A stretch of 64,000 nucleotides of DNA, taken from assembly GCF_022410465.1 (NCBI RefSeq), contig NZ_JAJSON010000027.1, positions 1 to 64,000 of the forward strand, read 5' to 3'. The stretch's first letter is position 1. Every line of letters starts with the position of its first letter. Source of the stretch: Christiangramia crocea. GTDB taxonomy: Bacteria; Bacteroidota; Bacteroidia; Flavobacteriales; Flavobacteriaceae. Shown here in pieces: positions 27,651-55,770 of the stretch. The position numbers were made by a program, and so were the translations under genes. Under the pieces are notes generated by a model. The model saw only the letters and a list, made by a program, of their open reading frames with translations, did no database searches and was not told the origin of the DNA.

Positions 27651-27723
27651 TTAATAAGAAGTTGAGAAAATAAATTAGAGTTTTACTAAATAAATATTTA
27701 ACAATTTTAAACTAATCAATAAT

Positions 27724-29403: not shown

Positions 29404-29430
29404 AAATCAGTGATCATAAAAACTAAAAAA

Positions 29431-29453
29431 AGCCCGAAGTTATTCTTCGGGCT
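29431..29453. terminator. Bidirectional terminator between symporter and lacI-type gene
   Basis: AGCCCGAAG pairs with CTTCGGGCT around TTATT, with an A-run before and a T-run after. It can end both convergent transcripts. Confidence 0.9.
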
Positions 29454-29487
29454 TTTTTTGTCTGTTTTTTTACTAAAAACTCAGAGT

Positions 29488-30516: not shown

Positions 30517-30525
30517 AATTCTTCA

Positions 30526-33104: not shown

Positions 33105-34286
33105 ATGTCCATGAGATCAATTTTGAAACTGTTTGTTTTTATATTTCTTTTTGCTTCCTGTAAAGAGAAAAAAGAAAGTGATGCAAATCGGGAACTGCCA
33201 GATACCTCAAAGACCCAATACGGAACAGTAGATGTTGAGGATCCTGAAACTCAGATTCCAGAAGATGTAAAACCCCTTTTTGATCACTGGTTAAGAGATA
33301 CCTACATAAACCTTGGAAATGATGGTTATTATTATATGACCGGAACTACCGGTTTGGAGGGGAGGGAAACTGCCCGTGATCTTAGTCCGGGTATTCGTTT
33401 ATGGAGATCCAAGAACCTTAAAGATTGGGAAGATATGGGTTATGTATGGGCCTTCGAGGAAGATGGTACCTGGCAAAAGGATTTTGAAATAATCAAAGAT
33501 GGTCCAAAGGAAGACCTCAACCATAATAAGATAGGGGAAAAGAGACGGACATTATGGGCTCCGGAAATTCATTATATAGAAAGTAAGGATAATTACTTTA
33601 TTGTAGGTTGTACGCCTGAAAACCCACACGGAAGAGGATCTTATATATTGAGAAGTACATCTGGAAAGGCAACCGGGCCTTATGAGAATATAGAAGGAAA
33701 TAGTGATGGCCCTATCTTCCCGCAAATAGACGGTAGTTTGTTTGAAGATGAAGATGGGACAGTTTATTTTATAGGACATAGCCATCAGATTGCAAGAATG
33801 AAGGATGACATGAGTGGTTTTGCAGAACCTCTGAGGGAGTTTAAAGAACAGTCTTATGATAATGAACCATATATAGAAGGAGCTTATGTGGTGAAGGAAG
33901 GTGGGAAGTATCACCTTATGCAGGCTATATGGAGTATAAGACAACCAGACGGATCTTATTCTTATTCAGGAAAGAATCCCTATGATTCTAATGAAGAGCG
34001 TGAGGCTAATCTCTATTCTTACGACGTGGTGATCGCTACAGCTGATAATATCTATGGACCTTATTCAGATAGATATACAGCCGTTACCGGTGGTGGTCAT
34101 AATAATTTCTTTAAAGATAAAAAAGGGCAGTGGTGGAGTACAATGTTCGGAAATCCAAGAGGTGACCTGCTGGAAAGATCATTTCTTGCCAGACCTGCCA
34201 TAGTGCCAATCAAGTATGAGAATGGAAAATTTAAAGTAGATCAGGAAAGAGACCTTGAATTCTTGTATGAAGATGTAGCCGAATAA
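33105..34286 (+). CDS. GH43-like five-bladed beta-propeller glycosidase (lipoprotein)
   Basis: The 393-residue lipoprotein (lipobox FASC, lipid Cys at 19) has the GH43/clan-F propeller pattern. Candidate base is D65 in WLRDTYINLG, candidate pKa modulator is D209 in PQIDGSLFEDEDG and candidate acid is E258 in YIEGAYVVKEGGKYH. TLWAPEIHYIESKDNYF and GGHNNFFKDKKGQWWSTMFG are further blade signatures. Members remove terminal arabinose, xylose or galactose; GH117-like 3,6-anhydrogalactosidases share the fold and are a real alternative. It diverges from galK and belongs to the sulfatase-rich locus. Confidence 0.82.
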   Translation: MSMRSILKLFVFIFLFASCKEKKESDANRELPDTSKTQYGTVDVEDPETQIPEDVKPLFDHWLRDTYINLGNDGYYYMTGTTGLEGRETARDLSPGIRLWRSKNLKDWEDMGYVWAFEEDGTWQKDFEIIKDGPKEDLNHNKIGEKRRTLWAPEIHYIESKDNYFIVGCTPENPHGRGSYILRSTSGKATGPYENIEGNSDGPIFPQIDGSLFEDEDGTVYFIGHSHQIARMKDDMSGFAEPLREFKEQSYDNEPYIEGAYVVKEGGKYHLMQAIWSIRQPDGSYSYSGKNPYDSNEEREANLYSYDVVIATADNIYGPYSDRYTAVTGGGHNNFFKDKKGQWWSTMFGNPRGDLLERSFLARPAIVPIKYENGKFKVDQERDLEFLYEDVAE

Positions 34287-40300: not shown

Positions 40301-41422
40301 TATTTTATCATCATTGTCTGCTATGATCTGGCTAACGGCTTTTCCATGAAGCGAGGAATTATTATTTCCGGGAAGGAGTTTTTGGAAACCTTTATTTTGA
40401 GGGGCAGTGAAATTGACTCCCCCAAAATAGGTTCCTATCCAGGTAATGCCTTCATCACTTAGATAAAGGGAATAGATGGATTTATCAGAGAGGGATCCCG
40501 GTTCTTTATCAAATGACTGCTTATAATGCTCTGAGGTGCCGGTTTTAAGATCATGTACAAATATCCCGGATTCGGTCCCTATCCATAAACGGCCGTCGTT
40601 CCCCTCAGAAATTGTTCTAATAACATTTGCCTCTATTTCATGGTTCTGGTCTATTTCATAAAATTCGAAGCTATCTTCATTTTCGTTGAAGAGATATAAG
40701 CCTTTGGAAGTACCTAACCAAGTATTTCCCTTTGTGTCTTTAAATAATAAATTAATGTTGAAACTGGTGCCACTATCGGTTATTTCAGGAGTTATAGTGT
40801 ATTTTTTTATCACCTCGCCAGAATCATTGATCATCCAGACCTGAGTGTTTAAACCCATCCAGTGAACATTTGTCTTATAATTACACAGGGCCCTAACAGT
40901 TACATTATTTACCAGCTTTTCAATTTGATCATTATCTTTTAGGGTATATAAACCGTTCGCAGTTCCTATGAAAATCTTGTTATTAACTGTTTCAAAAAGT
41001 ACTCTAACAGATTCACTGATTCGGCTACCTGAAAACTCACTTGTAAATTTGTCTAATTTGGGCTGATATCTGTTTAATCCTTTACGGGTCCCAATTAAAA
41101 TTCCTTTGGAAGAATTCAGTAAATAATTAATCTGGTTGTCTAAAAGTCCGGTACCTGAAGTGTCATTCTTCTTGCTATAATAGGTATATACCTTATAACC
41201 GTCATACCGGTTAAGTCCTTCTCTTGTTCCAAACCACATAAAACCATTACTATCCTCGGTAATTGAATATACCGTGCTGTGCGATAACCCCTGGACAGAA
41301 TTTATATTCCTGAATTCCTGTTTCTGGGCAACCAGATAGTTAGAAATTGAAGAGAAAATAAGAAAACAGGATAGAACCCATTTATTTATCAAGAATGATT
41401 TGTTACAAACAAAAAAAATCAT
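37385..41422 (-). CDS. Hybrid two-component system sensor/regulator (HTCS)
   Basis: One 1,345-residue polypeptide holds a whole signalling pathway. After a signal/anchor segment, residues about 40-690 are repeated W-x-G-T propeller blades (periplasmic sensor), then a Y_Y_Y domain (about 700-765) and a membrane helix at about 779-798. Next come the histidine kinase (H835 in FISHEFKTPLT; ATPase around 940-1050), a receiver (D1150 in IISDLIMPEMDG) and a C-terminal AraC-type DNA-binding domain (about 1245-1345). Such proteins bind oligosaccharides of the target glycan and induce the locus. It is the only PUL-type regulator in the window, so it very probably controls the sulfatase-SusCD operon starting at 41696. 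Confidence 0.96.
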   Translation of the reverse strand: MIFFVCNKSFLINKWVLSCFLIFSSISNYLVAQKQEFRNINSVQGLSHSTVYSITEDSNGFMWFGTREGLNRYDGYKVYTYYSKKNDTSGTGLLDNQINYLLNSSKGILIGTRKGLNRYQPKLDKFTSEFSGSRISESVRVLFETVNNKIFIGTANGLYTLKDNDQIEKLVNNVTVRALCNYKTNVHWMGLNTQVWMINDSGEVIKKYTITPEITDSGTSFNINLLFKDTKGNTWLGTSKGLYLFNENEDSFEFYEIDQNHEIEANVIRTISEGNDGRLWIGTESGIFVHDLKTGTSEHYKQSFDKEPGSLSDKSIYSLYLSDEGITWIGTYFGGVNFTAPQNKGFQKLLPGNNNSSLHGKAVSQIIADNDDKIWIATEDGGISILNRKKNNFSYLNTANGLSSNNIHSLYEDDKGHIWIGTFLGGLDRYDKATGNIKHFKHRNNDPTSISNNYVYSIMEDREDRLWVGTQYGLNIYDPASGNFILFKPETFGNKFIYDMLQDEKGNLWICTRFNGIFRYRPSEDEIQHFSGEDLSSDQIISATETSTGEIWFGTLNGGLLKWEESSGSFKNYTQYDILPNNNVYEIVEGPNKDLWLTTNKGLVRYKTESDTVITYTTNDGLTSNQFNFKSGYKDDDGWLYFGTINGLTYFHPDTLKTKLPPSEMQITGFQLFNEEVPVGQNSILKKNITYTDSISLKHHQNVITFEFAALNYQPGNKYAYFLEGFEDNWNMVGDKRTATYTNLSPGEYTFRVQTLPLNNSQEKKIHLTILPPFWQTNWAYALYFILLLAGIYAYWRFVRFIHNQKLAVKVEKVEKEKIKEVNQHKLNFFTFISHEFKTPLTLIIASIDKYIKGHAVNLNQSEELASIKKSAGKLQHLIQQLMEFRKIETSHVELDLKKGDVILFLKDTFNAFALLMEEKELTYKLKSNISEYVCYFDPDKLEMIATNLLSNAIKNTPEQGEIKLNLAISNKLDEQHRSKLSLEVEDSGVGMNSEEVSKVFNPFFKAGENNSNQWRPGSGIGLALVKNLTDLLDGHIRVDSKKDEGTKIRIDLPLRLKIEEEEKEINFIEGNKTLNIDPHIFMDEQSKLEEVIIEDLPKGMTLLIVEDNRQIIKFLKEHFSTRFKVITAKNGVHALEKLNNYIPDIIISDLIMPEMDGISLCKKVKSNPETNHIPFLLLTGKTDKSYKMEGLRVGANAFINKPFSINELDLLVKNLLETNQNRAKRFSGGDMETIEKIPETNQNREFLKKINDIVIENYNDPKFTIENLASLMGISRSLLHIKMKKATGTSASDYLKKIRLKKAEELIKQGKTISEVAYNVGYSDPNYFSRVFKKEYKVSPSNYK

Positions 41423-41695: not shown

Positions 41696-43432
41696 ATGAC
41701 AATAAATACTGATAAGACATATTTCCCTGTATTTAAAGGTGGTTTTTTAGCCCTTTTAGGTCTTCTGATATTATTATTGGGTGGCTGTAAGGAAAGAGGA
41801 ACTTCAGGAAAGAATAATTCAGAAGATGAGCGTCCTAATATCGTGATAATTATGGCAGACGATATGGGGTTCTCAGACCTTGGTTGTTATGGAGGAGAGA
41901 TTAATACTCCAAATATTGATAGGCTGGCCGGAAATGGCTTAAGATTCAACTCTTTCTATAATACTGCGAGATGTTGTCCTTCAAGAGCATCTTTATTAAC
42001 TGGTTTATATCCTCATCAGGCAGGAATAGGCCGTATGACAAGAGATGCGGGTTTGCCTGGTTATCAGGGTACTCTGGATTCAGCTACGGTAACTATTGCT
42101 GAGGTTCTAAAAGGTGCGGGCTACCAAACAGGAATGACTGGTAAATGGCATGTGTCACCAACCAATCCGCTGGAAAAGGAAAAACAGCTGAAATGGTTAT
42201 CCCATCAGGAAGATTACGGACATTTTTCGGATACTACAACTTATCCTACTTCCAGGGGATTCGATAGATATTATGGGAATATTTGGGGGGTGGTTGATTA
42301 TTTCGATCCATTCAGTCTTGTTAATAATATGGAAATAGTGCCTGATGTTCCAGACGAATTTTACTACACCGATGCTATCGGGGATACCGCTGTTGCGTAC
42401 GTAGAAGATTTTTCTAAAAAGAAAGAACCTTTCTTTCTTTATGTTGCTCACTGTGCGCCTCACTGGCCGCTCCAGGCTCCAGAGGAGGAAATAGCAAAAT
42501 ATGAAGCTACCTACAATAGTGGCTGGAGATCTATTCGTGAAAAGAGATATAAAGAATTAATCGATAAAGGGGTCCTACAAGGAGATGTTGCAAGTCTTTC
42601 AGAATTCATGTTTCCAAATAAACACTGGGAGAATAATCCACATAAGGAATGGGATGCGCGGGCCATGGCCGTTCATGCAGCAATGATAGACCGTATGGAT
42701 CAAACCATTGGAAACCTGATCGATAAACTCGAAGAAACCGGAGAACTTGATAATACGATAATATTCTTTTTATCTGATAATGGAGCCAGTTCTGAACGAC
42801 CTTCCCGCTATGGTCCTGGCTTTGACAGGGCAGGATCTACGAGAGATGGACGTGAAGTGGTATTTCCCGTGGAAAAAGATTCTCTGCCCGGTTCTCAAAC
42901 CGTGGTCTCGGGAATTGGTCCGGTATGGGCAAATGTTTCAAATACACCTTTTAGATACTGGAAATCCAGGGTTTATGAGGGAGGAATAACTACTCCTTTT
43001 ATAGTGCATTGGCCAGAAAGGGTCAAGGATAGAGGAATTGTAAAGAGTGAAGCAGCTCATATAATAGACTTAATGGCTACCTGTATTGATGTGGCTGGTG
43101 CAAGTTATCCGGAAAACTTTAATGGAAATAAGATTACTCCAATTCAGGGGAACTCTATGCTGCCACTTCTTACAGGTGAGTCTAATGAAAACACACATGA
43201 TGCTTATTTCTGGGAGCATTTTGGGTCTGCAGCATTAAGAGAGGGTGACTGGAAGCTTGTTCAATTAAAACCAGAGGCGGAGTGGGAACTATATAATCTG
43301 GCTGAAGATCGTACGGAGACCAATAATCTTGCGAAAGATTACCCTGAAAAATTAGAAGAATTAAAAAGTAAATGGAATGAAATGGCGCATGAACTGGATG
43401 TTTTTCCATCGCCAACTCCAATAAAAAAATAA
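41696..43432 (+). CDS. Sulfatase (family S1), lipoprotein
   Basis: The 578-residue sulfatase is the first gene of the long operon. The N-terminus has a hydrophobic segment ending LLLGGC (lipid Cys at 31). MADDMGFSDLG provides metal-binding Asp residues, and CCPSR (C93 is the predicted formylglycine) is the family signature. GKWHVSP, YVAHCAPHWPLQAP and IFFLSDNGASS follow. It differs clearly from the sulfatase at 34485 in length and motif details, so the two likely remove sulfates from different positions. The stop is 2 bp before the GH2 start. Confidence 0.93.
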   Translation: MTINTDKTYFPVFKGGFLALLGLLILLLGGCKERGTSGKNNSEDERPNIVIIMADDMGFSDLGCYGGEINTPNIDRLAGNGLRFNSFYNTARCCPSRASLLTGLYPHQAGIGRMTRDAGLPGYQGTLDSATVTIAEVLKGAGYQTGMTGKWHVSPTNPLEKEKQLKWLSHQEDYGHFSDTTTYPTSRGFDRYYGNIWGVVDYFDPFSLVNNMEIVPDVPDEFYYTDAIGDTAVAYVEDFSKKKEPFFLYVAHCAPHWPLQAPEEEIAKYEATYNSGWRSIREKRYKELIDKGVLQGDVASLSEFMFPNKHWENNPHKEWDARAMAVHAAMIDRMDQTIGNLIDKLEETGELDNTIIFFLSDNGASSERPSRYGPGFDRAGSTRDGREVVFPVEKDSLPGSQTVVSGIGPVWANVSNTPFRYWKSRVYEGGITTPFIVHWPERVKDRGIVKSEAAHIIDLMATCIDVAGASYPENFNGNKITPIQGNSMLPLLTGESNENTHDAYFWEHFGSAALREGDWKLVQLKPEAEWELYNLAEDRTETNNLAKDYPEKLEELKSKWNEMAHELDVFPSPTPIKK

Positions 43433-43434: not shown

Positions 43435-45777
43435 ATGAAGATGAGAATAAATTTACTTACGCTAGTATTTGTTTTTTGCTCCTTTAGCCTTTCTTCACAG
43501 GAAAATGCTGAGGATGTTTTGAGGTTTTCAATGGATACCAAATGGACAGATCAGGTAGATGAGGAAAGTCCCTGGAATAATTATCCCCGCCCTCAAATGA
43601 AACGTGAAGACTGGACCAATTTGAATGGTTTGTGGGAATATGCTATAAGACCGGTAAGACAAGAACAACCTGCAGAATTTGATGGAGAAATTCTGGTGCC
43701 TTTTCCGGTTGAATCAGCACTGAGTAAGGTTAAAAAGCTGGTAAATGAAGATAACTACCTGTGGTATCGCACCACTTTTGAGACTGAAGATTTAAACCAA
43801 GAAGAAAAATTACATCTAAATTTTGGTGCCGTTGACTGGGAAGCTGTGGTATATCTTAATGGAAAGGTTGTTGGCGGTCATAAAGGAGGGTACACTCCTT
43901 TTAGTCTTGATCTTACCCCTTTTCTAAAAAAAGGTAAACAGGAATTAATAGTTAGGGTATGGGATCCTACAGATCTAGGAACACAGGCCAGGGGTAAGCA
44001 GGTAAAGGATCCAAAAGGTATCTGGTATACTCCTGTAACTGGAATATGGCAAACCGTCTGGCTGGAAAAGACATCAAAAGATTATATAAGCCTGGTTAAG
44101 AATACACCTGATATTGATAATAATAACCTTGATGTTGAAGTAAGTACTTCCTCCTTATCTGAGGATATGAAATTGAAGGTGGAAGTATTAAAGGATGGTG
44201 AGAAAATAGCCCTGAACGAACAAAACCTCTCTCCTGCATCAAAGTCTGCCGGGTTCGAAATTGCCATACCTGATCCTGTACTCTGGACACCAGAGAATCC
44301 TTTCTTATATGATCTGGTGATCTCACTTGAAACATTAGAGGGCAAAACAGTAGATAAGGTTGAAAGCTATTTCGGGATGCGAAAGATTTCCCTTGGGATA
44401 GGCCCTACTGGATATACCAGGATAATGCTGAACAATAAACCTCTGTTTCAGTTTGGGCTTCTTGACCAGGGTTGGTGGCCAGATGGGCTTTATACCGCTC
44501 CTACCGAGGAAGCCATGATGTATGATGTGGAAATGACCAAAAAAATGGGCTTCAATATGCTTAGAAAGCATGTAAAAGTTGAGCCGGCCAGATTCTATTA
44601 TAACTGTGATAAGATGGGAATGCTGGTTTGGCAGGATATGCCTAATGGAAATTATTTCCGTGACCTGCGTATCCAGGCCTGGGAAGAGAAAGATGCCGTA
44701 CGTCCTTTTGATTCCTCCATTCAGTTCGAAACTGAATTGAAAGAAATGATGGATCAGTTTCATTCATTCCCATCTATAGTAGTGTGGGTTCCGTTTAATG
44801 AAGGCTGGGGCCAGTATGATACAGAAAGAGTAACCAAATGGGTATCAGCCTACGATACGAGCAGACTTATTGATTCTCCAAGTGGCTGGACAGACCGTGG
44901 GGTAGGAGACCTTATAGATACTCACTTATACCCGGGGCCTGGAATGGAGATGCCTGAGGAAGACAGGGCCTCTGTATTAGGAGAATTTGGCGGACTGGGC
45001 CTTACGGTGGATGGTCATATGTGGTGGGATAAAAAGAACTGGGGCTATCTTACTTATAGTGATAAAGAGGAGTATCTGGACAGGTTTGAATCTCTGATTA
45101 AGGACCTGATTGGATTAAAGAGTTTCGGATTATCGGGAGCCATCTACACTCAGACAACAGATGTAGAAGGCGAGGTTAATGGTCTGATCACTTATGATAG
45201 AGAGGTCGTAAAGATAAAACCAGAAAAAACCAGGGAATTATTTGCTCCTCTTTACAAAGAACCGGAAAAGTACAAGACAGTTGTAGCAGATTCTGAACAA
45301 GATTCTAACAACTGGATGATTGCATACAATGTTAATGAGGATTGGTATAAAGGTGATGGTAATACAAATTCTTGGAAGACAGCCAGGGCACCTTTCAGTA
45401 CCTATGATAATTATTTCCTGCCAGAAGGGACTTCCTGGGATAAAAATGAAGACCTCTATTTAATAAAAGAATTTACGATTGATGAAATTCCGGAAAGTAT
45501 GATATTAAGATACTATCTGGATAAATCCAGTATGGAGGTTTATCTGAATGGAAAACTATTAACTAAAGAGAAGCATGAAGGAGGAAGAAAGCGTCACTAT
45601 AGAAATCAGTTAATAGAGAATGCTTCCGATTACCTGAAAAAAGGAAAGAACACTATCGCTATTTCAGTAAAGGGCGAACCAGAAGAACGATCATTCGATC
45701 TGGGTATTTATACCGGCGGTGTTAAAGAGAATATGGAATTTCTTAATACTTCCATTTCAAAAAATAATGAAAAGTAA
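43435..45777 (+). CDS. GH2 family glycosidase (beta-galactosidase/beta-glucuronidase type)
   Basis: The 780-residue enzyme has a signal peptide (cleavage near SLSSQ), then the jelly-roll (residues about 50-215), Ig-like (215-320) and TIM-barrel (320-610) domains of GH2. The acid/base is E456 in FNEGWGQYDT and the nucleophile E517 in VLGEFGGLG. About 160 further residues form another jelly-roll-like domain (YLDKSSMEVYLNGKLL, KGKNTIAISVKG). It should cleave terminal beta-linked galactose or a related sugar in the periplasm. It is 2 bp after the sulfatase and 7 bp before the next gene. The galactose genes nearby favour beta-galactosidase. Confidence 0.92.
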   Translation: MKMRINLLTLVFVFCSFSLSSQENAEDVLRFSMDTKWTDQVDEESPWNNYPRPQMKREDWTNLNGLWEYAIRPVRQEQPAEFDGEILVPFPVESALSKVKKLVNEDNYLWYRTTFETEDLNQEEKLHLNFGAVDWEAVVYLNGKVVGGHKGGYTPFSLDLTPFLKKGKQELIVRVWDPTDLGTQARGKQVKDPKGIWYTPVTGIWQTVWLEKTSKDYISLVKNTPDIDNNNLDVEVSTSSLSEDMKLKVEVLKDGEKIALNEQNLSPASKSAGFEIAIPDPVLWTPENPFLYDLVISLETLEGKTVDKVESYFGMRKISLGIGPTGYTRIMLNNKPLFQFGLLDQGWWPDGLYTAPTEEAMMYDVEMTKKMGFNMLRKHVKVEPARFYYNCDKMGMLVWQDMPNGNYFRDLRIQAWEEKDAVRPFDSSIQFETELKEMMDQFHSFPSIVVWVPFNEGWGQYDTERVTKWVSAYDTSRLIDSPSGWTDRGVGDLIDTHLYPGPGMEMPEEDRASVLGEFGGLGLTVDGHMWWDKKNWGYLTYSDKEEYLDRFESLIKDLIGLKSFGLSGAIYTQTTDVEGEVNGLITYDREVVKIKPEKTRELFAPLYKEPEKYKTVVADSEQDSNNWMIAYNVNEDWYKGDGNTNSWKTARAPFSTYDNYFLPEGTSWDKNEDLYLIKEFTIDEIPESMILRYYLDKSSMEVYLNGKLLTKEKHEGGRKRHYRNQLIENASDYLKKGKNTIAISVKGEPEERSFDLGIYTGGVKENMEFLNTSISKNNEK

Positions 45778-45784: not shown

Positions 45785-47029
45785 ATGAAATTGATGAAGA
45801 GAAATTTAACTATAAACATTTTAGCCGCATTCATTTTTTTGCTGCTAGGGACGTCCTGCTCTTCAGATGGTGGGGTAGATCCAACGGATGATGTTACTCA
45901 AACAGATGACGGGCCAATAGATAATCCTGATGATGGCTCTTCTGATATTCTGGATGATTCCAAGAACCTTGGGGTAAACTTCAATGAACAGCTTAATTAT
46001 ATAGATAATGACAGGCTGTTGGCACTGGAAACCACATGGGTACGGGGATTTGTTGATTACTTCAGGTACTATGAGGATCCTTCGTTACTAAATACGGATG
46101 AGAAGATAACCAAGTATCTGACTCTGCATACCTATGGTTTCAAGACGGTCCTTAATATCAAATTCCTTTACAGAAATAAAGATTATCCAGACCAGAATTC
46201 TGCAGAGATGCAGGATCAGATGGATTTCCTGGAAGATCTTCTAGACAGGGTTTGGGATAAGACGGATATTATAGTAGTTGGGAATGAGCCTATTATTGAA
46301 ACAGATCCTGAAGACAGAAATGATTCAATGTTCAATTATTATGTTGAGGCCTCCAACACAGTAAAGGACTATGCTGATGAACATGGTGATAAACCAATCT
46401 TTTTTGGAGCCTTTGATAATATGTATCAGTCTAACAGGCAGGATTTACAGGTTGTTAACGATCTGCTTACTTTTTCAAGCACCACTCCGTGGATAGCAGG
46501 TGTTGATATGCATATTCATCATTCCTCCACAAACCAGATGGAAGAGGCACTTGATTATGTGAGCTCTAGAATAAGAAGCGATCAGAAGATTATGGTAACT
46601 GAATTCTCTTTAAAAAAACATTTTAAGAATCAGCTAACGGGAATTATTCCTGAATCATTTGCAGCAGAATATGGATTCTCGGCAGACCTTCAGAATTATC
46701 AGTATATAGATTATGCTTTAAAGAACCAGGTGGAGAGAGAACAGTGGGTGGATTTCTTAAGCCAGAGTCCGTGGTTTGAAAACCGAAAGAATTACCTGAG
46801 CAATAGCTTTTATGACGTGTTCTCGGCCTACGATAAATTCTTTATGGCTGCCTATGCCTTTAGGCAAAGCTATCCCTTTAATGCTGATTTTACGGCAAAC
46901 ACAGATCCATGGATCCTCAATGGTATGTATGCCAACCGAACAGTGGAACCAGATCCTGACACAGGCCAGTTTCAGTTTAATTATGCCTGGCCAGAGGATT
47001 TTATTTCCATACAGAACAATGCTAATTAA
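45785..47029 (+). CDS. Glycosidase-like TIM-barrel lipoprotein (paralogue A)
   Basis: The 414-residue lipoprotein (lipobox GTSC, lipid Cys at 25; ATG at 45785 chosen because an earlier in-frame start would overlap GH2 and bury the signal) has a 35-residue Asp-rich linker. The fold that follows resembles clan GH-A: strand-4 motif VVGNEP (E168, proposed acid/base), HIHH around 243-246, and strand-7 motif VTEFSL (E273, proposed nucleophile). It resembles the protein at 51693 along its length. I recognise no named GH family (GH39, GH5, GH53 and GH30 differ). It is probably surface-exposed, cleaving the glycan for the adjacent SusC. Function inferred. Confidence 0.72.
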   Translation: MKLMKRNLTINILAAFIFLLLGTSCSSDGGVDPTDDVTQTDDGPIDNPDDGSSDILDDSKNLGVNFNEQLNYIDNDRLLALETTWVRGFVDYFRYYEDPSLLNTDEKITKYLTLHTYGFKTVLNIKFLYRNKDYPDQNSAEMQDQMDFLEDLLDRVWDKTDIIVVGNEPIIETDPEDRNDSMFNYYVEASNTVKDYADEHGDKPIFFGAFDNMYQSNRQDLQVVNDLLTFSSTTPWIAGVDMHIHHSSTNQMEEALDYVSSRIRSDQKIMVTEFSLKKHFKNQLTGIIPESFAAEYGFSADLQNYQYIDYALKNQVEREQWVDFLSQSPWFENRKNYLSNSFYDVFSAYDKFFMAAYAFRQSYPFNADFTANTDPWILNGMYANRTVEPDPDTGQFQFNYAWPEDFISIQNNAN

Positions 47030-47063
47030 AACCAGAACTTAATAAATCTAAAAACATTTAATT

Positions 47064-50000
47064 ATGACAAAAGATAAATACAGGCAACGTGCTTTAAGGC
47101 ACCTATTTCTGCTCTCCTTCCTGGTGGTAGGTATCACTGCAATGGGACAGAACATAAGTGTATCGGGGACTGTCACAACTTTTGAAGACGGCCAGCCTCT
47201 TCCCGGGGTTAATGTAATTGTAAAGGGAACTAACAACGGTGCACAAACCGATTTCGATGGTAATTATACTCTAAACAGTGTTTCCGGAGATGCAACCCTG
47301 GTATTCAGTTATGTTGGATTTATAACTCAGGAAGTACCTATAGATAATCGAACAACCATAAATCTTGCCTTAAAGACAGATCAGGAAGCTCTTGATGAGG
47401 TTGTTGTAATTGGATATGGAACCGTTAAGAAAAGTGACCTTACAGGTGCAGTTTCTTCCATCAAGGCAGAGGATATGAACCCGGGGGCGAATGCCTCTGT
47501 GGAGCAGGCTTTGCAGGGTCGTATTGCAGGTGTTCAAATCAGCCAGAAAAGTAATGAGCCCGGTGGTGGACTCAGCGTAAATATTCGTGGTGCCGGTTCC
47601 ATCAATGCAGGAACCGAGCCTTTATATGTAATTGATGGTGTTATTGTGAACAATGGTTCAATAGCCGCAACAGGAGGTCAGGGTTTTACCGGAAATTCCA
47701 ATCCCAGAAACCCTCTTAATACTCTTAACCCGGATGACATCCAGTCTATAGAGGTACTGAAAGATGCCTCCAGTACAGCAATCTATGGTTCCAGGGGGTC
47801 TAACGGTGTTGTTTTGATAACAACCAAGAAAGGAAAGACTGGAAAGTTACGAATTAATTATGATGCCTATTACGGGATTCAGGAAGCTGCAGAGACTTTG
47901 GATCTATTATCTCCAACCGAATATCGTGATGTGCTGAATGCTATTATTGAAGACGGCGGGGGAGATCCGGGACAAACAATAAATGAGATTGCAGGTGACG
48001 GGACAGACTGGATGGACCTGATACTTCAAACTGCTCCAACACAAAACCATAATATTTCATTTTCGGGTGCTACAGATAACCTGAACTACTATTCTTCATT
48101 AAACTATTATAACCAGGAAGGTTTGGTAAAAGGTTCCGGAATGGAGAGATACAATGTGAGGCTGAACCTTGGTTCTAATTCTGAAGAGAATTATAACTAT
48201 GGTATTAACATGAATGCTTCCTATATTAAAGATGATTTTGCCTCTACCGGTACCGGGATCAATGAAAATGGAGGAGCTATCTATTCTGCGATAAATTATG
48301 ATCCTACTATCCAGCCATATAATGAAGATGGTAGTTATAGGTTATCCCAGTTCATTACAATAGATAATCCACTTTCTATTCTTAACGGGGAGAAAGCCAA
48401 AGGTGAAACCTTCAGATTTTATGGTAACACTTTCTTTGAATATTTCGTAATGCCTTCATTATCTGCTAAGGTGCAGATAGGTGGAGATATTCAGGAAGTA
48501 AGAAGGGATATTTTTGTTCAGCCATATACACTGGCCGGAGCAGGAACCGGAGGAATCGCAACGATCCAGACAGGTAGAAAAGATTATGTTTCGGTGGAAG
48601 GAACCCTGAATTACAATAAAAGTTTTGGAGATGATAATCTTACAGCCCTGCTTGGTTCTACTTACGAATACTTTCAGACTAAATCGTTTTCAGGAAATGC
48701 AAGAGGATTTGCATTACCAGATCTGGGAACAAATGCTATAGGTTCTGGAGATCCTGAATTGAACAATATTGGAAGTGGACGTAATCAGGCGAGATTTATA
48801 TCGTATCTGGCGAGAGTGAATTACTCTCTTAACAATAAGTATCTTTTTACCGGATCTATCAGGGCCGATGGTTCTTCAAGATTCGGTGACAATAATAAAT
48901 TTGGATATTTTCCTTCAGGAGCTGTGGCCTGGAAGATGCATGAAGAAGATTTTCTTCAGGATAATTCGTGGATCAATCAGTTAAAACTTAGAGCAAGTAT
49001 TGGTAGCACGGGAAATGCGAATATCGGCAACTCCCTTACTTTTCAAACATTCTCTGCAGGCCAGGATCTTTTATTCGGAGATAGCTTTTATAATACGATC
49101 TATCCAACCAGAATTGCGAATCCAGACCTTACATGGGAAAAAGCAGTACAATACGACTTTGGGGTAGACTTTGGATTCTTCAAAAACAGAATAAGCGGTT
49201 CTTTGGATTACTTCAACAAAGAGACAACAGATCTTTTACTGGTTGTACCTCAGGCTTTGAATACCGGTTTCGGAGGTCAAACCCAGAATCTGGGAGGTGT
49301 TCGTAATCAGGGTGTTGAATTAGCCTTAAACCTTGATGTAATAAGAGGAGATGATTTTACCTGGGATGTTTCTGCCAATCTTGCCACCCTTGATAATGAG
49401 GTGTTGGATATTGGAGAAAGAGGTGATATCATTCGAGGAGGACAATCTCAGATTCCGGACTTCTCAATCGTTACTCCAGGGCAGACTCTTGATTCATACT
49501 ATGGATTCATAGTTGATGGTGTATGGCAGGAAGAGGATAACTTCAGCATTACTGAACCTCAGGTTCAACCGGGAGATCTTAAGTATCGTGATGTTAATGG
49601 TGATGGAGCTATCAATGCAGATGACCGCGTAATCCTTGGAAACACAATTCCCGACTTAACCTGGGGACTTACCAATAACCTAAGATTTAAAGATCTAACC
49701 CTGGATATTCTTCTGCAGGGAGTTGAGGGTGTAGAGAGGTTGAATGGTAACCTGATAAATACTTACTCGCCAAATAACTTCAGAAGAAACAGGATTGCAG
49801 AGCCATTATTGAATAGATGGACTCCGGAAAACCCTACTAATGAATATCCTTCATTTGTTAACCCAACATCACAGGGAGGAGCCAATGCGCTTATAAATAG
49901 TAAGACAGTAGAGGACGCATCATACGTAAGACTTCAATCAGTTAGACTTGGATACGACCTGCCAGTAGATAATATTGACCTTTTTAATAAGTTTTCGGTT

Positions 50001-50150
50001 TATGTAACAGGTCAGAATCTATACACCTTTACAGATTATAGTGGTGTGGATCCTGCGGCCAATGCAAGTGGAAGAAATACTACCGGACTAGACTTCAATG
50101 CGTATCCGTTGCCAAGAACCTTTTTGGTAGGACTTAATGTAGAATTTTAA
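47064..50150 (+). CDS. susC: SusC-type TonB-dependent outer-membrane transporter
   Basis: The 1,028-residue protein imports oligosaccharides using TonB energy. A signal peptide (to about 28) precedes a carboxypeptidase-regulatory-like domain (VSGTVTTFEDGQPLPGVNVI, residues about 31-105). DEVVVIGYGTVKKSDLTGAV and SIEVLKDASSTAIYGSRGSNGV belong to the TonB box/plug, and the remainder is the 22-strand barrel ending in an aromatic residue (VEF). It is directly followed by susD (14 bp gap). Length and architecture are standard for the SusC/RagA class. Confidence 0.97.
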   Translation: MTKDKYRQRALRHLFLLSFLVVGITAMGQNISVSGTVTTFEDGQPLPGVNVIVKGTNNGAQTDFDGNYTLNSVSGDATLVFSYVGFITQEVPIDNRTTINLALKTDQEALDEVVVIGYGTVKKSDLTGAVSSIKAEDMNPGANASVEQALQGRIAGVQISQKSNEPGGGLSVNIRGAGSINAGTEPLYVIDGVIVNNGSIAATGGQGFTGNSNPRNPLNTLNPDDIQSIEVLKDASSTAIYGSRGSNGVVLITTKKGKTGKLRINYDAYYGIQEAAETLDLLSPTEYRDVLNAIIEDGGGDPGQTINEIAGDGTDWMDLILQTAPTQNHNISFSGATDNLNYYSSLNYYNQEGLVKGSGMERYNVRLNLGSNSEENYNYGINMNASYIKDDFASTGTGINENGGAIYSAINYDPTIQPYNEDGSYRLSQFITIDNPLSILNGEKAKGETFRFYGNTFFEYFVMPSLSAKVQIGGDIQEVRRDIFVQPYTLAGAGTGGIATIQTGRKDYVSVEGTLNYNKSFGDDNLTALLGSTYEYFQTKSFSGNARGFALPDLGTNAIGSGDPELNNIGSGRNQARFISYLARVNYSLNNKYLFTGSIRADGSSRFGDNNKFGYFPSGAVAWKMHEEDFLQDNSWINQLKLRASIGSTGNANIGNSLTFQTFSAGQDLLFGDSFYNTIYPTRIANPDLTWEKAVQYDFGVDFGFFKNRISGSLDYFNKETTDLLLVVPQALNTGFGGQTQNLGGVRNQGVELALNLDVIRGDDFTWDVSANLATLDNEVLDIGERGDIIRGGQSQIPDFSIVTPGQTLDSYYGFIVDGVWQEEDNFSITEPQVQPGDLKYRDVNGDGAINADDRVILGNTIPDLTWGLTNNLRFKDLTLDILLQGVEGVERLNGNLINTYSPNNFRRNRIAEPLLNRWTPENPTNEYPSFVNPTSQGGANALINSKTVEDASYVRLQSVRLGYDLPVDNIDLFNKFSVYVTGQNLYTFTDYSGVDPAANASGRNTTGLDFNAYPLPRTFLVGLNVEF

Positions 50151-50164
50151 AAAAAGTAATTAAT

Positions 50165-51637
50165 ATGAAAACTATAAATATTAAACACATTTCTAGACTG
50201 CTGGTGCTTTGCTTCATTTTTACGTCTTGTGAAGCGGAACTTGACCTGCCTCCGGTTGATGAGTTCTCACCGCAGAATGTTTTGCAATCGCGTGAAGGAC
50301 TGGAAGCATTACTCTTTTCTGCTTATCAATATGATAATATTGAGCAGAGTGTGAAAGATGAGATTCTGATTAATGAAGTTACTACAGATGTAGGTTTTGT
50401 TAGGATTGGAGCGGTTGAACGTGAGATGAAACCTTATCTTAACTTTAACTGGGATCCTTCCGATCCTAAATTTCAAGGTGTATTTTGGGCTCCCCGATAC
50501 AGGGCTATTAGGGATGCCAATACTGTGTTGGAAAATATAGGATCCTCTTCCGTAGATGAGGAAACCAAGGCATTGATCACAGCAGAAGCAAGATATCTAC
50601 GTGCCGCGCAGTATGTTTATATGTACAGGTACTTCGGGGTGGTTCCGTTAAGAACTACCACCAATCTGGATGAACAGCCTCAGGAATTACCTTTACCTTC
50701 TGAGGAAGAATTTTCCACATTTGTTGAAACAGAATTAAGGGAAGCAGCGACCAATTTACTTCACCCTTCAGAGCAAACTCAGAGAGGACGTGCTACTAAA
50801 GGTCATGCGCTTGCCGTTTTGACAAAATTCTTAATGCAAACAAAGCAATGGGCAAAAGTAGTTGAGGTGACTCAGCAAATAATGGATCTAAACTATTATG
50901 AACTTTTCCCTGATTACAGAGCTACGTTCTTTGTGGAAAATGAAGGGAATAAGGAGATTATAGTTACATGGTCTTTAACTAACGAACAGGGATTCGGAAA
51001 TAACTATCAAAACGGTGCCTTTCCTCCTGGTTTTATGCATTCCGAAAGTGTTCCTGAATTCACCTGGACGACAGAAATGGCTAACTGGGCAACCCAGTTT
51101 AGCATGAGAGATGGTTTTTATGATTCATTTGAAGAGGAAGACGATCGTAAACAGACCATTATCGAGACATATACCAACCTGGGAGGTAATACGGTTAACC
51201 TTAGAGGAACTGCTGATAATACCCGAAGCCTTAAGTTCTTTGATAATAACCAGATAGGAAACTTCTCTGGAGCTGATCATCCTTACATAAGATACGCTGA
51301 TATCCTATTAAGCCGTGCAGAAGCCTTGAATGAGATCAATGGCCCTACCCAGGAATCTGTTGATCTGGTTAACCAGGTAAGAACAAGATCTATAGATGAT
51401 CCATATACCCTTGCCGAAGTTGGCGGAAAGGATAGCTTTAATGATATCATACTCCAGGAGAGAGGATGGGAATTCTTCTCAGAAGGAAAGAGGAGGGAAG
51501 ATCTCATTCGTCATGACAAGTTCATCGAATATGCCCAGGACAGAGGTCTCAATGCTCAGCCTTATCAGATATATTTTCCATATCCACAGGCTGAGATCAA
51601 TGCGAATCCGGCCCTTGAACAGAGAAGTGGATATTAA
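50165..51637 (+). CDS. susD: SusD-type surface glycan-binding lipoprotein
   Basis: The 490-residue lipoprotein (lipobox FTSC, lipid Cys at 20) forms the lid over SusC. The N-terminal SusD-like part contains FWAPRYRAIRDANTVLENI and AEARYLRAAQYVYMYRYFGVVPL. The C-terminal RagB/SusD part contains HPYIRYADILLSRAEALNEIN and ILQERGWEFFSEGKRREDLIRH. Both are hallmarks of the family. It binds the glycan and delivers it to SusC. A strong hairpin follows its stop codon by 9 bp. Confidence 0.96.
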   Translation: MKTINIKHISRLLVLCFIFTSCEAELDLPPVDEFSPQNVLQSREGLEALLFSAYQYDNIEQSVKDEILINEVTTDVGFVRIGAVEREMKPYLNFNWDPSDPKFQGVFWAPRYRAIRDANTVLENIGSSSVDEETKALITAEARYLRAAQYVYMYRYFGVVPLRTTTNLDEQPQELPLPSEEEFSTFVETELREAATNLLHPSEQTQRGRATKGHALAVLTKFLMQTKQWAKVVEVTQQIMDLNYYELFPDYRATFFVENEGNKEIIVTWSLTNEQGFGNNYQNGAFPPGFMHSESVPEFTWTTEMANWATQFSMRDGFYDSFEEEDDRKQTIIETYTNLGGNTVNLRGTADNTRSLKFFDNNQIGNFSGADHPYIRYADILLSRAEALNEINGPTQESVDLVNQVRTRSIDDPYTLAEVGGKDSFNDIILQERGWEFFSEGKRREDLIRHDKFIEYAQDRGLNAQPYQIYFPYPQAEINANPALEQRSGY

Positions 51638-51646
51638 AAAAAAATC

Positions 51647-51675
51647 TGCAGGCTTTACAAGGTGTAAAGCCTGCA
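51647..51675 (+). terminator. Intra-operon hairpin after susD
   Basis: A perfect 12-bp stem (TGCAGGCTTTAC with GTAAAGCCTGCA, loop AAGGT) lies between susD and the next gene of the same operon. No T-run follows (TTAACCCTTT), so it is better read as an mRNA 3'-end stabiliser or partial terminator that keeps susCD expression above the downstream genes. Confidence 0.6.
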
Positions 51676-51692
51676 TTAACCCTTTATGAATT

Positions 51693-52865
51693 TTGAGAAA
51701 ATCAATTCTACGTATAGTTCTGGGAACATTTCTCTTTTCCAATGTTCTGGTAGGACAGGAACTGGGGTCTAACTTCAATCATAATCCTGAAATCATGGAT
51801 TTTGATTACCTCGAGAAGGCCCAGGTGGACTGGGTAAGAACTACCCCAAGGATTATGGAGTATACAGACGGAACATTGAGTATTGAAAATGATCCCGGGC
51901 TTTCCAAAATAGTGGAGGCGGGAAAGCGAGGTTATAAAATCGCATTTGGATTCCGGTGGGATTTTGCTAAAAACGACCGGCGAATTCCTGAAGCAGACTC
52001 CGAGGAAGAAAAGGAGCTTTTTAATACCGCCACACAGATTCTTGAAAAAGTGGGACCCTGGGTAGAAATTTTCAAACTGGGGAATGAGCCTAATCTTGAA
52101 ACCCTTCCTATTGATATGGTGAAGGATGATAACGGAGGAATTCCTTTATTGGAATTTACTGATAGATTGCTCTATAAAGTGGTTTTGCCATTTTTCAGAA
52201 ACCAGGATCCGGAGAATATTCCTGATATCTATATAGGATCTTTTCCAGCCCTGTTTGAAAAACGATTTCAGGAGAACCCCGGGGTAAATGCTCTCTTGGA
52301 GTATACGAACGATAATGCAGATATTACCGGGCTTTCTCTTCATTTGCATATTGAAGATACCCTTGAGATAGACCAGTCTTTTAAGTATGCCCGTAGTATA
52401 GTAAAGGAGAAGCCTATTATTGTTCCTGAATTTTCCTTACACAGGTTATATAGAGGAAAAATAACCGAACCTCTCAATATAAATGAAGCAGGAGAGGCCT
52501 TTGCCAGGAAGTATGGTCGTAATCCGGAATGGAAATTATACCAGTGGTATGGATATGTAAACACCAATAGGGTAAGTCCTGAAGAATGGGATGCTATGTT
52601 CGCCACCAGGGAATGGTTTCCGCAGCATTATCTGCAGATATACTTTGACAGGTTTGAAAAATACGGAGTAGTCCTGGCTACATATCCACTTTTTCAGCAA
52701 AGCTGTCCGGAAAATATGACTCCAAATTCTCCTGCGTGGTTTATCAATCCGATATTTTGTCAAAAATCACTGGAATTGCAACCTGACGGATCTTTTTCGC
52801 CAAATCCGTTGTGTTTTAGAGACTTTGTAAGTCTGGTGAATGAAAACAGAAATACAGAAAACTAA
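51693..52865 (+). CDS. Glycosidase-like TIM-barrel protein (paralogue B)
   Basis: The 390-residue protein starts at TTG (the only sensible start: a stop lies two codons upstream, and the TTG gives a clean signal peptide ending LVGQ). Its core resembles paralogue A at 45785: VDWVRT, KLGNEPNLET (E132, proposed acid/base), LHLHI around 216-220, VPEFSL (E246, proposed nucleophile), FARKYG, EEWDAMF, and a C-terminal NSPAWFINPIF segment. It has a type I signal instead of a lipoprotein one, so it may work in the periplasm while paralogue A works on the surface. No named GH family is recognised. It follows the susD hairpin by 17 bp. Confidence 0.72.
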   Translation: MRKSILRIVLGTFLFSNVLVGQELGSNFNHNPEIMDFDYLEKAQVDWVRTTPRIMEYTDGTLSIENDPGLSKIVEAGKRGYKIAFGFRWDFAKNDRRIPEADSEEEKELFNTATQILEKVGPWVEIFKLGNEPNLETLPIDMVKDDNGGIPLLEFTDRLLYKVVLPFFRNQDPENIPDIYIGSFPALFEKRFQENPGVNALLEYTNDNADITGLSLHLHIEDTLEIDQSFKYARSIVKEKPIIVPEFSLHRLYRGKITEPLNINEAGEAFARKYGRNPEWKLYQWYGYVNTNRVSPEEWDAMFATREWFPQHYLQIYFDRFEKYGVVLATYPLFQQSCPENMTPNSPAWFINPIFCQKSLELQPDGSFSPNPLCFRDFVSLVNENRNTEN

Positions 52866-52877: not shown

Positions 52878-54722
52878 ATGAAAACAATTTATACTAAATT
52901 GGGTGTCGTCATGTTACTTTTTATAGCTGTTCTGGCATGTACTGAAGATGACGCCATTCCCAGAAATCCAATAATAAAGATAACCGGAACATCGCTGAGT
53001 TTCGGTGACATTGATGTTACTGAAACCTCACAGGTTAGGTCTTATACCATAGCCGCTGAAGATCTTACTTCAGAAGTTACGGCAAGTGTGGAAGCGCCTT
53101 TTTATTTATCCCTGACTGCAAACGGGGAATTCACTAATTCAGTAAGCCTTTCACCTGATGATTTTGGTAATGATGCAATTCCTGTATTTGTTCAGTTTCA
53201 GCCAGGAGCTTCCGATGAAGGTATGTATGAAGATAAGATTGTTCATACCAGTGCCGACCGCGAAGATATAGCCACGATAAAAGTTTCCGGGATTGCTACC
53301 GTTCCTGGTGAACCAACACTGGTATCCAGCGAAAGCAGTCTTGATTTTGGAAATGTGGTAGTAGATCAAACCTCTGAAGTAAAAAGTTATACCCTCTCTG
53401 GTTCAGATCTTGAGGCCGACATTAACCTTGAGGTTACCGGACCATTCGGTATTTCTTTGACCCAGGATGGTGAGTTTAGTGGTTCTTTGACCATAGACGC
53501 TAATGATGCTATGGACGACCAGACTGTGTATGCACGTTTTGCTCCTACTGCAGAAGGAGATGCTACAGGAACTATCGTTCATAGTTCTTCTGATCTTGAA
53601 ACAGACATGGAGGTTTCCTTAACTGGTGCCGGAGATCCGATTCCTGATGTATCGGTAATTGTTGATCCTACAACACTTGATCTTGGTTCTGTACCATTAA
53701 GTGAAGTTTCTGGAGCTGCTTCTTATACTCTAACAGGAAGTGGACTTACCTCTGATGTTACCGTAACTGGTTCGGCCTTGTTCAAGGTTTCCAGATCTTC
53801 AGACGGTGAATTCACCGAAAGCCTTACTATCCCTGCAGCTGATTTTGAAATCGGCGATGTAGAGGTGTTCGTTCAGTTTAACTCCACCGGAGAGATTGGA
53901 GAGAAAACCGGTGAGATCACCCATAATTCAGGTGAAGTTCAAATAGAAAGTGTGATAGTTACAGCGAGTTCAATCTCGACTACAACCAAGTTGTTCCTTG
54001 ATAATTTCGAATATACCGCTGGGGAAGCCATTCCTTCAACAGATAGAACCGGAAGTGGTGCAGATAATGAAGTGATGGACGGATGGCTTAAAGTAAGAAC
54101 CGGAAATGCCGATATTCTTGTTGCGGATCAGAACCTGTCTTATAACGGATATCCTGAATCTACCGGAAATGCTGCCCTGTTAGACCTGGAAGGATCAAGT
54201 AATGTGTATGCTCATAATCTTTCTGAGCAACAGGATGTGAATTTTGTAGGTGCATACTACAGCTCATTCCTTTTAAAGATCGAAGAACTTCCAACAGGAG
54301 GATTTAGCCGTCCGGTGATGTTTGTTGACTGGAATCCAAATGGGACTGTTAAGTTCTTAACTTCTATAAGTATAGAGTCCAATGGAGGAGATCCAAAATT
54401 CGGAATTCGTATGGAAGGAAATGTTGAGAATTCGAATATCACTCCTGAAACAGGAAAGACTTATCTAATTGTGATCAAGCATACTGTACCTGATGCCGAT
54501 CAGGGAAATAACAACAATTCAGGTCAGTTATTTGTTTTTGATGCTGAAGATATTCCGGCAACAGAACCAGTGACTCCGGATGCGAGCATCACAACCGGTA
54601 CAAGTCCTGGTGATGGACGTCTGGTAAAAGCAATCACTTTGGTAAATGATAATAATCCTGATGCCAGATATATAGTTGATGGATTAAAGGTTACTACTCA
54701 ATGGAGTGATTTGTTTGAGTAA
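52878..54722 (+). CDS. Repeat-containing surface lipoprotein, putative glycan-binding protein
   Basis: The 614-residue lipoprotein (lipobox LAC, lipid Cys at 21) has three tandem repeats of about 110 residues (near 36-145, 146-255 and 258-360). Each has a LDFGNV-type start, a SYTLSG core and a DGEF strand, resembling Ig-like choice-of-anchor/DUF1573-type domains. Residues about 365-614 form a separate domain (LFLDNFEYTAGEAIP start; YIVDGLKV near the end) that looks like a concanavalin-type jelly roll. Position after susCD and architecture fit a SusE/F-like surface glycan-binding protein, with the repeats acting as a stalk. It is the last gene of the operon, closed by a terminator. Confidence 0.75.
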   Translation: MKTIYTKLGVVMLLFIAVLACTEDDAIPRNPIIKITGTSLSFGDIDVTETSQVRSYTIAAEDLTSEVTASVEAPFYLSLTANGEFTNSVSLSPDDFGNDAIPVFVQFQPGASDEGMYEDKIVHTSADREDIATIKVSGIATVPGEPTLVSSESSLDFGNVVVDQTSEVKSYTLSGSDLEADINLEVTGPFGISLTQDGEFSGSLTIDANDAMDDQTVYARFAPTAEGDATGTIVHSSSDLETDMEVSLTGAGDPIPDVSVIVDPTTLDLGSVPLSEVSGAASYTLTGSGLTSDVTVTGSALFKVSRSSDGEFTESLTIPAADFEIGDVEVFVQFNSTGEIGEKTGEITHNSGEVQIESVIVTASSISTTTKLFLDNFEYTAGEAIPSTDRTGSGADNEVMDGWLKVRTGNADILVADQNLSYNGYPESTGNAALLDLEGSSNVYAHNLSEQQDVNFVGAYYSSFLLKIEELPTGGFSRPVMFVDWNPNGTVKFLTSISIESNGGDPKFGIRMEGNVENSNITPETGKTYLIVIKHTVPDADQGNNNNSGQLFVFDAEDIPATEPVTPDASITTGTSPGDGRLVKAITLVNDNNPDARYIVDGLKVTTQWSDLFE

Positions 54723-54776: not shown

Positions 54777-54885
54777 TTTCATATGTTCATAATTTTCCTG
54801 GGGGTGGAAGTTTTAACGCCTACATTAATAGTATTAATTACATTTATTACTATTTTTAAGGAAATTATATCACAAATTGTTTAAG

Positions 54886-55770
54886 ATGAATAGACGAAAT
54901 TTACTGAAGAATCTTGGGCTTGGTGCCGGAATTGTTAGCCTCGCCGGGGTTCCAAAAATATTTGCTTCAGAAATTAGGGAAAATGAATACAGCACTAATT
55001 CATCCCATAAATCGAAAATAAATCATTCGGTTTGCAGATGGTGCTACCAGGATATTCCATTGGATAAATTTGCCAAAGCCTGCACAGAAATAGGCATAAA
55101 GGCAATAGACCTACTAAAGCCGGAAGAATGGGAAGTGGTGGAGAAGGAAGGTTTAGTTTGTTCAATGGCTACCGATACATTTGCTAATATAACTGAAGGC
55201 TTCAATGATCCTGCTAATCATGAAAAATTACAGGAAGCTTACAAAGGTTTGATAAAGAAAGCTTCAGAACATAAAATCAAAAATGTGATCTGTTTTTCCG
55301 GAAACCGGAATGGAATGGATGATGAAACAGGGATTAAGAATTGTGTGACCGGCCTAAGTCCGTTACTCGATTATGCAAACGACCTAAATGTAAATCTGGT
55401 AATGGAACTTCTTAATAGTAAGGTGGATCATGCCGATTATATGTGCGACCATACCGAATGGGGAGTGGCCCTGGCAAAAGCCTTGAATAGACCTAACTTT
55501 AAACTTCTTTATGATATATACCATATGCAGATCATGGAAGGAGATGTGATAAGGACGATTCGTGATAGCCATCCATATATTAATCACTATCATACTGGGG
55601 GGGTGCCCGGAAGAAATGAGATAAATGATTCCCAGGAACTTAATTATCCCGCTGTCATGGAGGCAATTTATGAAACCGGATTCGATGGTTTTGTAGCCCA
55701 GGAATTTATTCCAACCTATGATGATAAGCTTTCTGCCCTGCGCGAGGGGATAGAGATCTGTGACATATAA
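54886..55770 (+). CDS. Tat-exported hydroxypyruvate-isomerase-like sugar isomerase
   Basis: From ATG at 54886 (an in-frame TTG at 54877 would add 3 residues) the 294-residue protein begins MNRRNLLKNLGLGAG, a twin-arginine signal. The rest is a xylose-isomerase-like TIM barrel of the hydroxypyruvate isomerase group: VMELLNSKVDH (metal Glu), LLYDIYHMQIMEGD (metal Asp and His), HYHTGGVPGRNEI and VAQEFIPTYDD (second Glu). Such enzymes isomerise or epimerise small sugars or acids with a divalent metal. Export suggests action on a periplasmic sugar. It follows the PUL terminator with its own leader; its role in the PUL is only inferred. Confidence 0.83.
   Translation: MNRRNLLKNLGLGAGIVSLAGVPKIFASEIRENEYSTNSSHKSKINHSVCRWCYQDIPLDKFAKACTEIGIKAIDLLKPEEWEVVEKEGLVCSMATDTFANITEGFNDPANHEKLQEAYKGLIKKASEHKIKNVICFSGNRNGMDDETGIKNCVTGLSPLLDYANDLNVNLVMELLNSKVDHADYMCDHTEWGVALAKALNRPNFKLLYDIYHMQIMEGDVIRTIRDSHPYINHYHTGGVPGRNEINDSQELNYPAVMEAIYETGFDGFVAQEFIPTYDDKLSALREGIEICDI

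Follow-up and report, generated by a model that had tools for sequence, protein, structure and literature searches.

A candidate clan GH-A glycosidase family flanking susCD in a sulfatase-containing gene cluster of Christiangramia crocea

Enzymes that cleave galactofuranose (Galf) are few, and they are of interest since Galf occurs in microbial cell walls. In glycoside hydrolase family 2 (GH2), the excerpted text of PMC12243196 assigns the structures 9J6M and 7XYR to furanosidase group III, with α-L-arabinofuranosidase and β-D-galactofuranosidase activities, and does not mention the structure 7sf2. GH159, a β-D-galactofuranosidase family, folds as a five-bladed β-propeller (available part of PMC9278983), and GH182 was founded by BACFIN_04787, an exo-β-D-galactofuranosidase of Bacteroides finegoldii that was used together with a GH43_31 enzyme (available part of PMC10115798). 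Here we compare with these systems a 64 kb stretch of Christiangramia crocea DNA (contig NZ_JAJSON010000027.1, positions 1 to 64,000; hereafter the window), whose source genome is that of a Gramella relative, and in particular two of its proteins, P1 and P2, which the initial annotation had put forward as a candidate new glycoside hydrolase family. We consider it likely that they represent a family of retaining glycosidases of clan GH-A, P1 working at the cell surface and P2 in the periplasm on a sulfated galactose/arabinose polysaccharide, perhaps one that bears Galf. The two genes and their proposed catalytic codons are:

45785..47029, plus strand: P1, 414 residues, a lipoprotein by eye, predicted (β/α)8 barrel
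46286-46288 and 46601-46603: codons of the proposed acid/base E168 and the proposed nucleophile E273 of P1
51693..52865, plus strand: P2, 390 residues, type I signal by eye, predicted (β/α)8 barrel
52086-52088 and 52428-52430: codons of the proposed acid/base E132 and the proposed nucleophile E246 of P2

The homology of P1 and P2 is far above chance: BLASTP aligns them at 25% identity across 370 residues (120 bits, E 5e-35), compared to a top score of 26.6 bits when P2 was shuffled 1000 times. They share the ordered set of motifs that had been described for them, each found in its expected place, namely GNEP, an HxH segment (MHIHH in P1, LHLHI in P2), (T/P)EFSL, FAAEYG/FARKYG, EREQW/SPEEW and W(I/F)xN. 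The distance between the two glutamates, 105 residues in P1 (E168 to E273) and 114 in P2 (E132 to E246), agrees with the earlier figures, as do the N-termini inspected by eye, where P1 shows a lipobox-like LLGTSC ahead of an acidic stretch and P2 a plain signal peptide. The start codon of P2 is TTG, as it is in the ortholog of Gramella jeungdoensis, and the open reading frame (ORF) of P1 has a further possible start at an upstream GTG (45719).

A profile search for a named glycoside hydrolase or non-enzymatic family, the check proposed by the initial annotation, gave no convincing match in Pfam, NCBIfam or the PDB sequences. At E ≤ 1, P1 gave two weak matches in Pfam (0.039) and one in NCBIfam (0.074), and P2 gave none in either library. 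With ten members as queries and E ≤ 10, Pfam returned only eight scattered families, Phage_capsid alone being seen in two members and the lowest E value (0.0012) belonging to PF22058, X25_BaPul_like, in one member, while NCBIfam returned two families, PRK14905 (two members) and pgm (one). Searches of the PDB sequences with a single query and with a 10-row profile produced nothing better than E 0.24. The family is thus unnamed in these three libraries, the comparison with GH182 having been made by description only. The literature searched held no recognisable description of it, and the two annotated relatives that we examined carry the label “hypothetical protein”.

Are these proteins built like glycosidases? 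AlphaFold models of P2 (pLDDT 86.3, pTM 0.84) and P1 (pLDDT 82.7, pTM 0.78) are both (β/α)8 barrels, with strands at residues 23-27, 47-50, 82-86, 124-129, 178-185, 213-219, 242-248 and 326-331 in P2, and 61-65, 85-91, 120-126, 162-165, 205-211, 237-245, 268-275 and 352-358 in P1. Clan GH-A enzymes carry a characteristic set of residues, known from GH5: an arginine on β2, Asn-Glu at β4, a histidine on β6 and a glutamate on β7. In the models, β2 carries R49 (P2) or R87 (P1), N131-E132 or N167-E168 follow directly after β4, β6 carries H217-x-H219 or H243-x-H245, and β7 carries E246 or E273. The predicted structures combine the barrel, the Asn-Glu at the end of β4 and the glutamate on β7 that define the clan, and they agree with the GH-A match and the glutamate positions anticipated for the two proteins. 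The arginine, asparagine, two histidines and both glutamates are invariant in all 14 aligned members of the family.

A Foldseek search of the PDB (E ≤ 0.001) with the models gave 65 matches for P2 and 241 for P1. The best 50 of each are glycosidases by title, except for the designed enzyme 6fhe; their identities are 7-18%, and no family is prominent. The top rows comprise GH10, GH164, PslG, GH5 and GH30 for P2, and PslG, GH1, GH10, GH158 and GH53 for P1, where some family names are those we take to belong to the structures. We also aligned the family profile to 21 of 30 GH5-type loci arranged in four sets (a-d). The probability was 49.8% for set c, which aligned over 188 columns, and 3.2% for set a (131 columns); in both, E132 and E246 fall in register with the NEP and E-W-G motifs of GH5, and HxH lies on HxY. 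Two controls, a TIM barrel from outside GH-A and a reversed GH39 profile, gave 0.1% each.

Based on the models and the invariant residues, P1 and P2 are very probably hydrolases. The substrate would bind across the C-terminal face of the barrel, where the β7 glutamate (E273/E246, in TEFS/PEFS) would attack the anomeric carbon, while the glutamate after β4 (E168/E132, in GNEP) would protonate the leaving group and then activate water; R87/R49 on β2 and the His-x-His of β6 would orient the nucleophile. From the N-termini we rather favour a division of labour between surface and periplasm. P1, probably a lipoprotein of the outer surface, would make the first cuts, SusCD would import the oligosaccharides released, and P2, probably periplasmic, would complete the cleavage of related linkages alongside the cluster's GH2, GH43 and S1 sulfatase enzymes. 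The likeliest bonds would be either equatorial and galacto-configured or 1,2-trans furanosidic (β-D-Galf, α-L-arabinofuranose (Araf), β-D-galactopyranose (Galp)) of a sulfated algal polysaccharide.

The family is rare and spans Bacteroidota and Proteobacteria. A pattern search of genome contigs yielded six relatives among 15 pattern matches. Two of 397 whole genomes of the same family were positive with P2 alone as query, own genome counted. Draws of 395 genomes each from the phylum and the class returned the own genome alone. In the genus draw 2/24 genomes were positive, again counting the own genome, at the same places as orthologs already found. Around other members, the order of G778 gave 2/241 (centre counted), the family of G998 1/18, which is the centre itself, and the genus of G774 4/6, one with a broken copy only; these draws overlap one another. 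The plasmid collection added members from Rhizobium (two records), B. finegoldii and Catenovulum, and the viral contigs held no relative with either P2 or the 14-row alignment as query. The B. finegoldii record, “plasmid 25” (L060, NZ_OY725927.1), carries mutS, ychF and lgt and looks chromosomal.

In total, 16 distinct full-length members are available, the two of the window included (14 aligned and two of G1397), and all of them keep GNEP and EFS; the 14-sequence alignment has 20 invariant columns, both glutamates among them. G. jeungdoensis (L003) has orthologs of both proteins at 92-93% identity. A tree separates a P1-like group (window, G. jeungdoensis, G998, Catenovulum, Rhizobium; internal order open), a P2-like group of seven rows, and a third that unites B. 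finegoldii with an S. pectinilyticum orphan, with long branches for Catenovulum, Rhizobium and B. finegoldii. Because P1-like and P2-like members fall into separate groups, the two proteins are old paralogs and not the result of a recent duplication. Strong purifying selection acts on the two genes between the window and G. jeungdoensis, with dN/dS values of 0.047 (P1) and 0.070 (P2); six neighbours have 0.020-0.082. The S. pectinilyticum orphan (L022 10453-11733) is a lipoprotein in a stretch without genes of a polysaccharide utilization locus (PUL), and the P1-like member on a Rhizobium plasmid (L062 7977-9080) has no SusCD or sulfatase within the 17 kb read.

In the window, P1 and P2 belong to a cluster with the following other features:

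26526..32756, no strand given: galactose gene cluster (epimerase, SGLT-type symporter, LacI regulator, galT, galK), named by sequence reading
33105..34286, plus strand: GH43 family protein (Pfam 2.8e-25)
34485..36029, minus strand: S1 sulfatase, best PDB match 9bas, “S1_15A sulfatase”
37385..41422, minus strand: hybrid two-component regulator (HTCS) of the cluster (Pfam Reg_prop, HATPase, Response_reg, HTH_18)
41696..43432, plus strand: S1 sulfatase, best PDB match 7all, presumably S1_4-like
43435..45777, plus strand: GH2 enzyme, closest PDB entry 7sf2, then β-D-galactofuranosidase 9j6n/9j6m; group III, GH2_18-like
47064..50150, plus strand: SusC-like TonB-dependent transporter, named by sequence reading
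50165..51637, plus strand: SusD-like glycan-binding lipoprotein (Pfam SusD_RagB 1.5e-29)
52878..54722, plus strand: lipoprotein with weak choice-of-anchor-D-like repeats (NCBIfam 40.5 bits, cut-off 45)
54877..55770, plus strand: xylose-isomerase-like TIM-barrel protein (AP_endonuc_2; Pfam 6.9e-23)

We compared 14 loci, each in a stretch of about 17 to 60 kb except for the window with its 64 kb (G000, G773, G1397, the PUL of G774, G775, G776, G777, G778, G998, G1400, B. finegoldii, Catenovulum, Rhizobium and the G774 orphan). SusC/SusD occurs in 11/14 (the SusD of B. finegoldii being counted from its annotation), HTCS in 11/14, an S1 sulfatase in 12/14 and a GH2 of the window type in 10/14; a GH43 was confirmed in at least seven, locus L007 has a GH127 pair, and G998 encodes a protein with an α-L-arabinofuranosidase domain (29.3 bits). 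Close homologs of the SusC protein (1233-2257 bits) were found in nine related loci. The order sulfatase, GH2, P1, SusC, SusD, P2 is identical in the window, G. jeungdoensis (G773) and one Sinomicrobium (G1397). The earlier description of two copies flanking susCD is therefore exact for these three, whereas at most one intact copy is left in each of the seven remaining SusCD loci of the same kind that were examined (G774, G775, G776, G777, G778, G998, G1400). In G998 the P1 ortholog sits between susC and susD (L029 13890-15125), and no P2 was found. The lipoprotein at 52878-54722, a possible glycan-binding protein of the cluster, adjoins P2 in the same three genomes, and the upstream galactose cluster is kept in G773. 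Two further observations concern P2 loci: in L008 a 1141-residue protein without a Pfam match at E ≤ 0.001 (1698-5123) resembles, on visual inspection, another barrel enzyme, and in a Salegentibacter metagenome-assembled genome the closely related susCD is separated from P2 by a second susCD pair that is more distant (L006 4040-9037).

What does the cluster degrade? Against the PDB, the GH2 enzyme scores 587 bits with 7sf2, 508 bits with the β-D-galactofuranosidase 9j6n and 278 bits with 7xyr, the next match having 93 bits. This enzyme, whose gene adjoins that of P1, points to furanosides (β-D-Galf or α-L-Araf), and we tentatively regard a furanoside substrate for P1 and P2 as possible, at somewhat below even chances. 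Because of the GH2 likeness, the two S1 sulfatases and the upstream galactose cluster, a sulfated polymer containing galactose together with Galf or Araf would fit the locus. The sulfated galactan suggested by the initial annotation is in keeping with the sulfatases and the galactose cluster, but that annotation did not name the furanosides to which the GH2 points. A gene for L-arabinose catabolism, araA, is present in the genome on contig C17 and was dropped as a substrate clue, being away from the cluster and hence uninformative. GH-A enzymes are known to cleave equatorial bonds. A β-L-arabinopyranan backbone was set aside as a direct target of P1 and P2 because its sugar unit has the configuration of α-D-Galp (excerpts of PMC7550628). 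Sulfated β-L-arabinopyranans with β-D-Galf side chains are described for Cladophorales and one Codium, as is a minor 6-sulfated galactan of Cladophora (excerpts of PMC5694217, PMC7550628 and PMC9695659), and we hypothesize that a green-algal polymer of the Cladophora/Codium type is the substrate. The fullest form of this idea, in which P1 and P2 would found a new GH-A family whose furanosidases, at the surface and in the periplasm, open up sulfated, Galf-bearing xylogalactoarabinans of this type, we regard as unlikely.

The alternative that survives best, although we think it rather unlikely, is that P1 and P2 are GH-A enzymes acting on a pyranosidic backbone, namely β-galactanases, of the endo or the exo type, that degrade a sulfated β-D-galactan, GH2 and GH43 being confined to trimming its side chains. 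Both sulfatases resemble S1 enzymes of the galactose/N-acetylgalactosamine (GalNAc) type, these being the substrates that we assume for 7all and 9bas, and galK, galT and the epimerase lie upstream. Moreover, a sulfated 3-linked β-D-galactan with 6-sulfated units occurs in Cladophorales and Codium (excerpts of PMC7550628). On the other hand, the sequences hold nothing that separates furanoside from pyranoside, and the lack of a known galactanase family in the Pfam results for ten proteins of the window is neutral at best.

We judge it quite unlikely that the family is the named GH182, with the B. finegoldii member P0003 being, or lying near, the founding BACFIN_04787, and P1 and P2 being distant members. 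P0003 lies in a PUL with a GH43, which recalls the GH43_31 used with BACFIN_04787 from the same species, and the GH2 adjoining P1 is close to galactofuranosidases. The best PDB match of that GH43 is 3kst, and no galactofuranosidase was named. However, BACFIN_04787 and P0003 are linked by organism and description only, the B. finegoldii enzymes are assigned to PULs 39 and 47 in the accessible text of PMC10115798, and P0003 has just 22% identity to P2. Its PUL also contains a sulfatase like the S1_15-type enzyme of the window (517.9 bits), which would be odd for an unsulfated mycobacterial galactan. PMC11653859 was discarded as a source on GH182, since its matches in the part seen are to “GH18_2”.

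Several observations weigh against the reading of P1 and P2 as GH-A enzymes of a PUL. TM-scores by query length are low (0.34-0.50) and r.m.s.d. values high (5.6-13 Å) in the best 50 Foldseek rows of each protein, so that the fold match reaches the clan level only. Even the highest GH5 set stops at 49.8%; set d (5.9%) aligns the β7 glutamate only, and set b (0.4%) is misaligned. A GH39 set gives 15.7% with an 11-row and 6.2% with a 14-row query and aligns the β4 glutamate only, eight GH39-type proteins taken singly reaching 1.2% at most. The barrel of the cluster's own GH2 gives an hhalign probability of 0.2% with the family, and this enzyme was set aside as a barrel relative. Catenovulum has TonB receptors without an annotated SusD, and because no PUL surrounds the Rhizobium members or the orphan of S. 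pectinilyticum within the stretches read, a PUL role is not valid for every member. In Sinomicrobium, a 92-residue ORF between GH2 and SusC in G775 (L005 3828-4106) fuses the two ends of P1 with loss of the barrel, a P1 end fragment lies at the same place in G774 (L004, about 4970-5100; weak match, profile E 0.48), and G1400 has no detectable P1 and a P2 split over three frames, possibly by an assembly fault. G775 and G774 keep the cluster, and P1 is thus dispensable in these genomes. Finally, glycan-binding lipoproteins also sit beside susD, as P1 does between susC and susD in G998.

The last point leads to the proposal that P1 and P2 are non-catalytic surface glycan-binding proteins descended from a GH-A enzyme. 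The gene of P2 directly follows susD, the usual place for surface glycan-binding proteins, and P1 is a putative lipoprotein. We nevertheless consider this very unlikely, given that both glutamates and the accompanying Arg, Asn, His, His set are kept in every aligned member, that the Rhizobium members and the orphan do without SusCD in the stretches read, and that most P2-type proteins have no lipobox by eye (L008 has one).

If the GH-A reading holds, it identifies the two glutamates of a rare enzyme family from Bacteroidota and Proteobacteria along with its conserved gene cluster, and offers a handle on the bacterial digestion of sulfated, possibly Galf-bearing, green-algal polysaccharides. 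If the green-algal furanosidase version is also true, this would be the first PUL assigned to a Cladophora/Codium-type polymer; a literature search on PULs and sulfatases in connection with Cladophora turned up nothing but work that, by title, concerns marine fungi.

How do P1 and P2 compare with the families described? PslG (5bx9, 9g17, 4zn2), which we take to be a GH39-type endoglycosidase with an NEP-type acid/base motif, ranks first for P1 in Foldseek (E 4.2e-8) and within the top 12 for P2, and would share barrel and retaining chemistry, but its identity to P1 is 13-14%, and a profile of eight PF01229-type proteins from relatives aligns only the NEP stretch. GH5 aligns with both glutamates in register in two of the four sets, yet ten members gave no Pfam GH5 match at E ≤ 10, and in the own genome neither PF00150 nor PF01229 matches P1 or P2. 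Two GH-A families of recent date, GH158 and GH164, appear near the top of the fold searches at 11-14% identity; no GH158, GH164 or GH10 match appeared in the PDB sequence searches at E ≤ 10, which leaves a likeness at the fold level. That P1 and P2 are very divergent members of a family such as GH39, GH5, GH158 or GH164 is hardly credible, for although PslG, GH158 and GH164 rank high by fold, the identities in those rows are only 11-14%, and no glycoside hydrolase match emerged from Pfam, NCBIfam or the PDB sequences. With GH159 the two proteins have only the activity theme in common, and their barrel models rule out membership in a β-propeller family. With GH182, compared by description only, they possibly share the Galf theme, and B. 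finegoldii harbors a member of each. Taken together, P1 and P2 appear from their sequences to form a separate family within a known clan.

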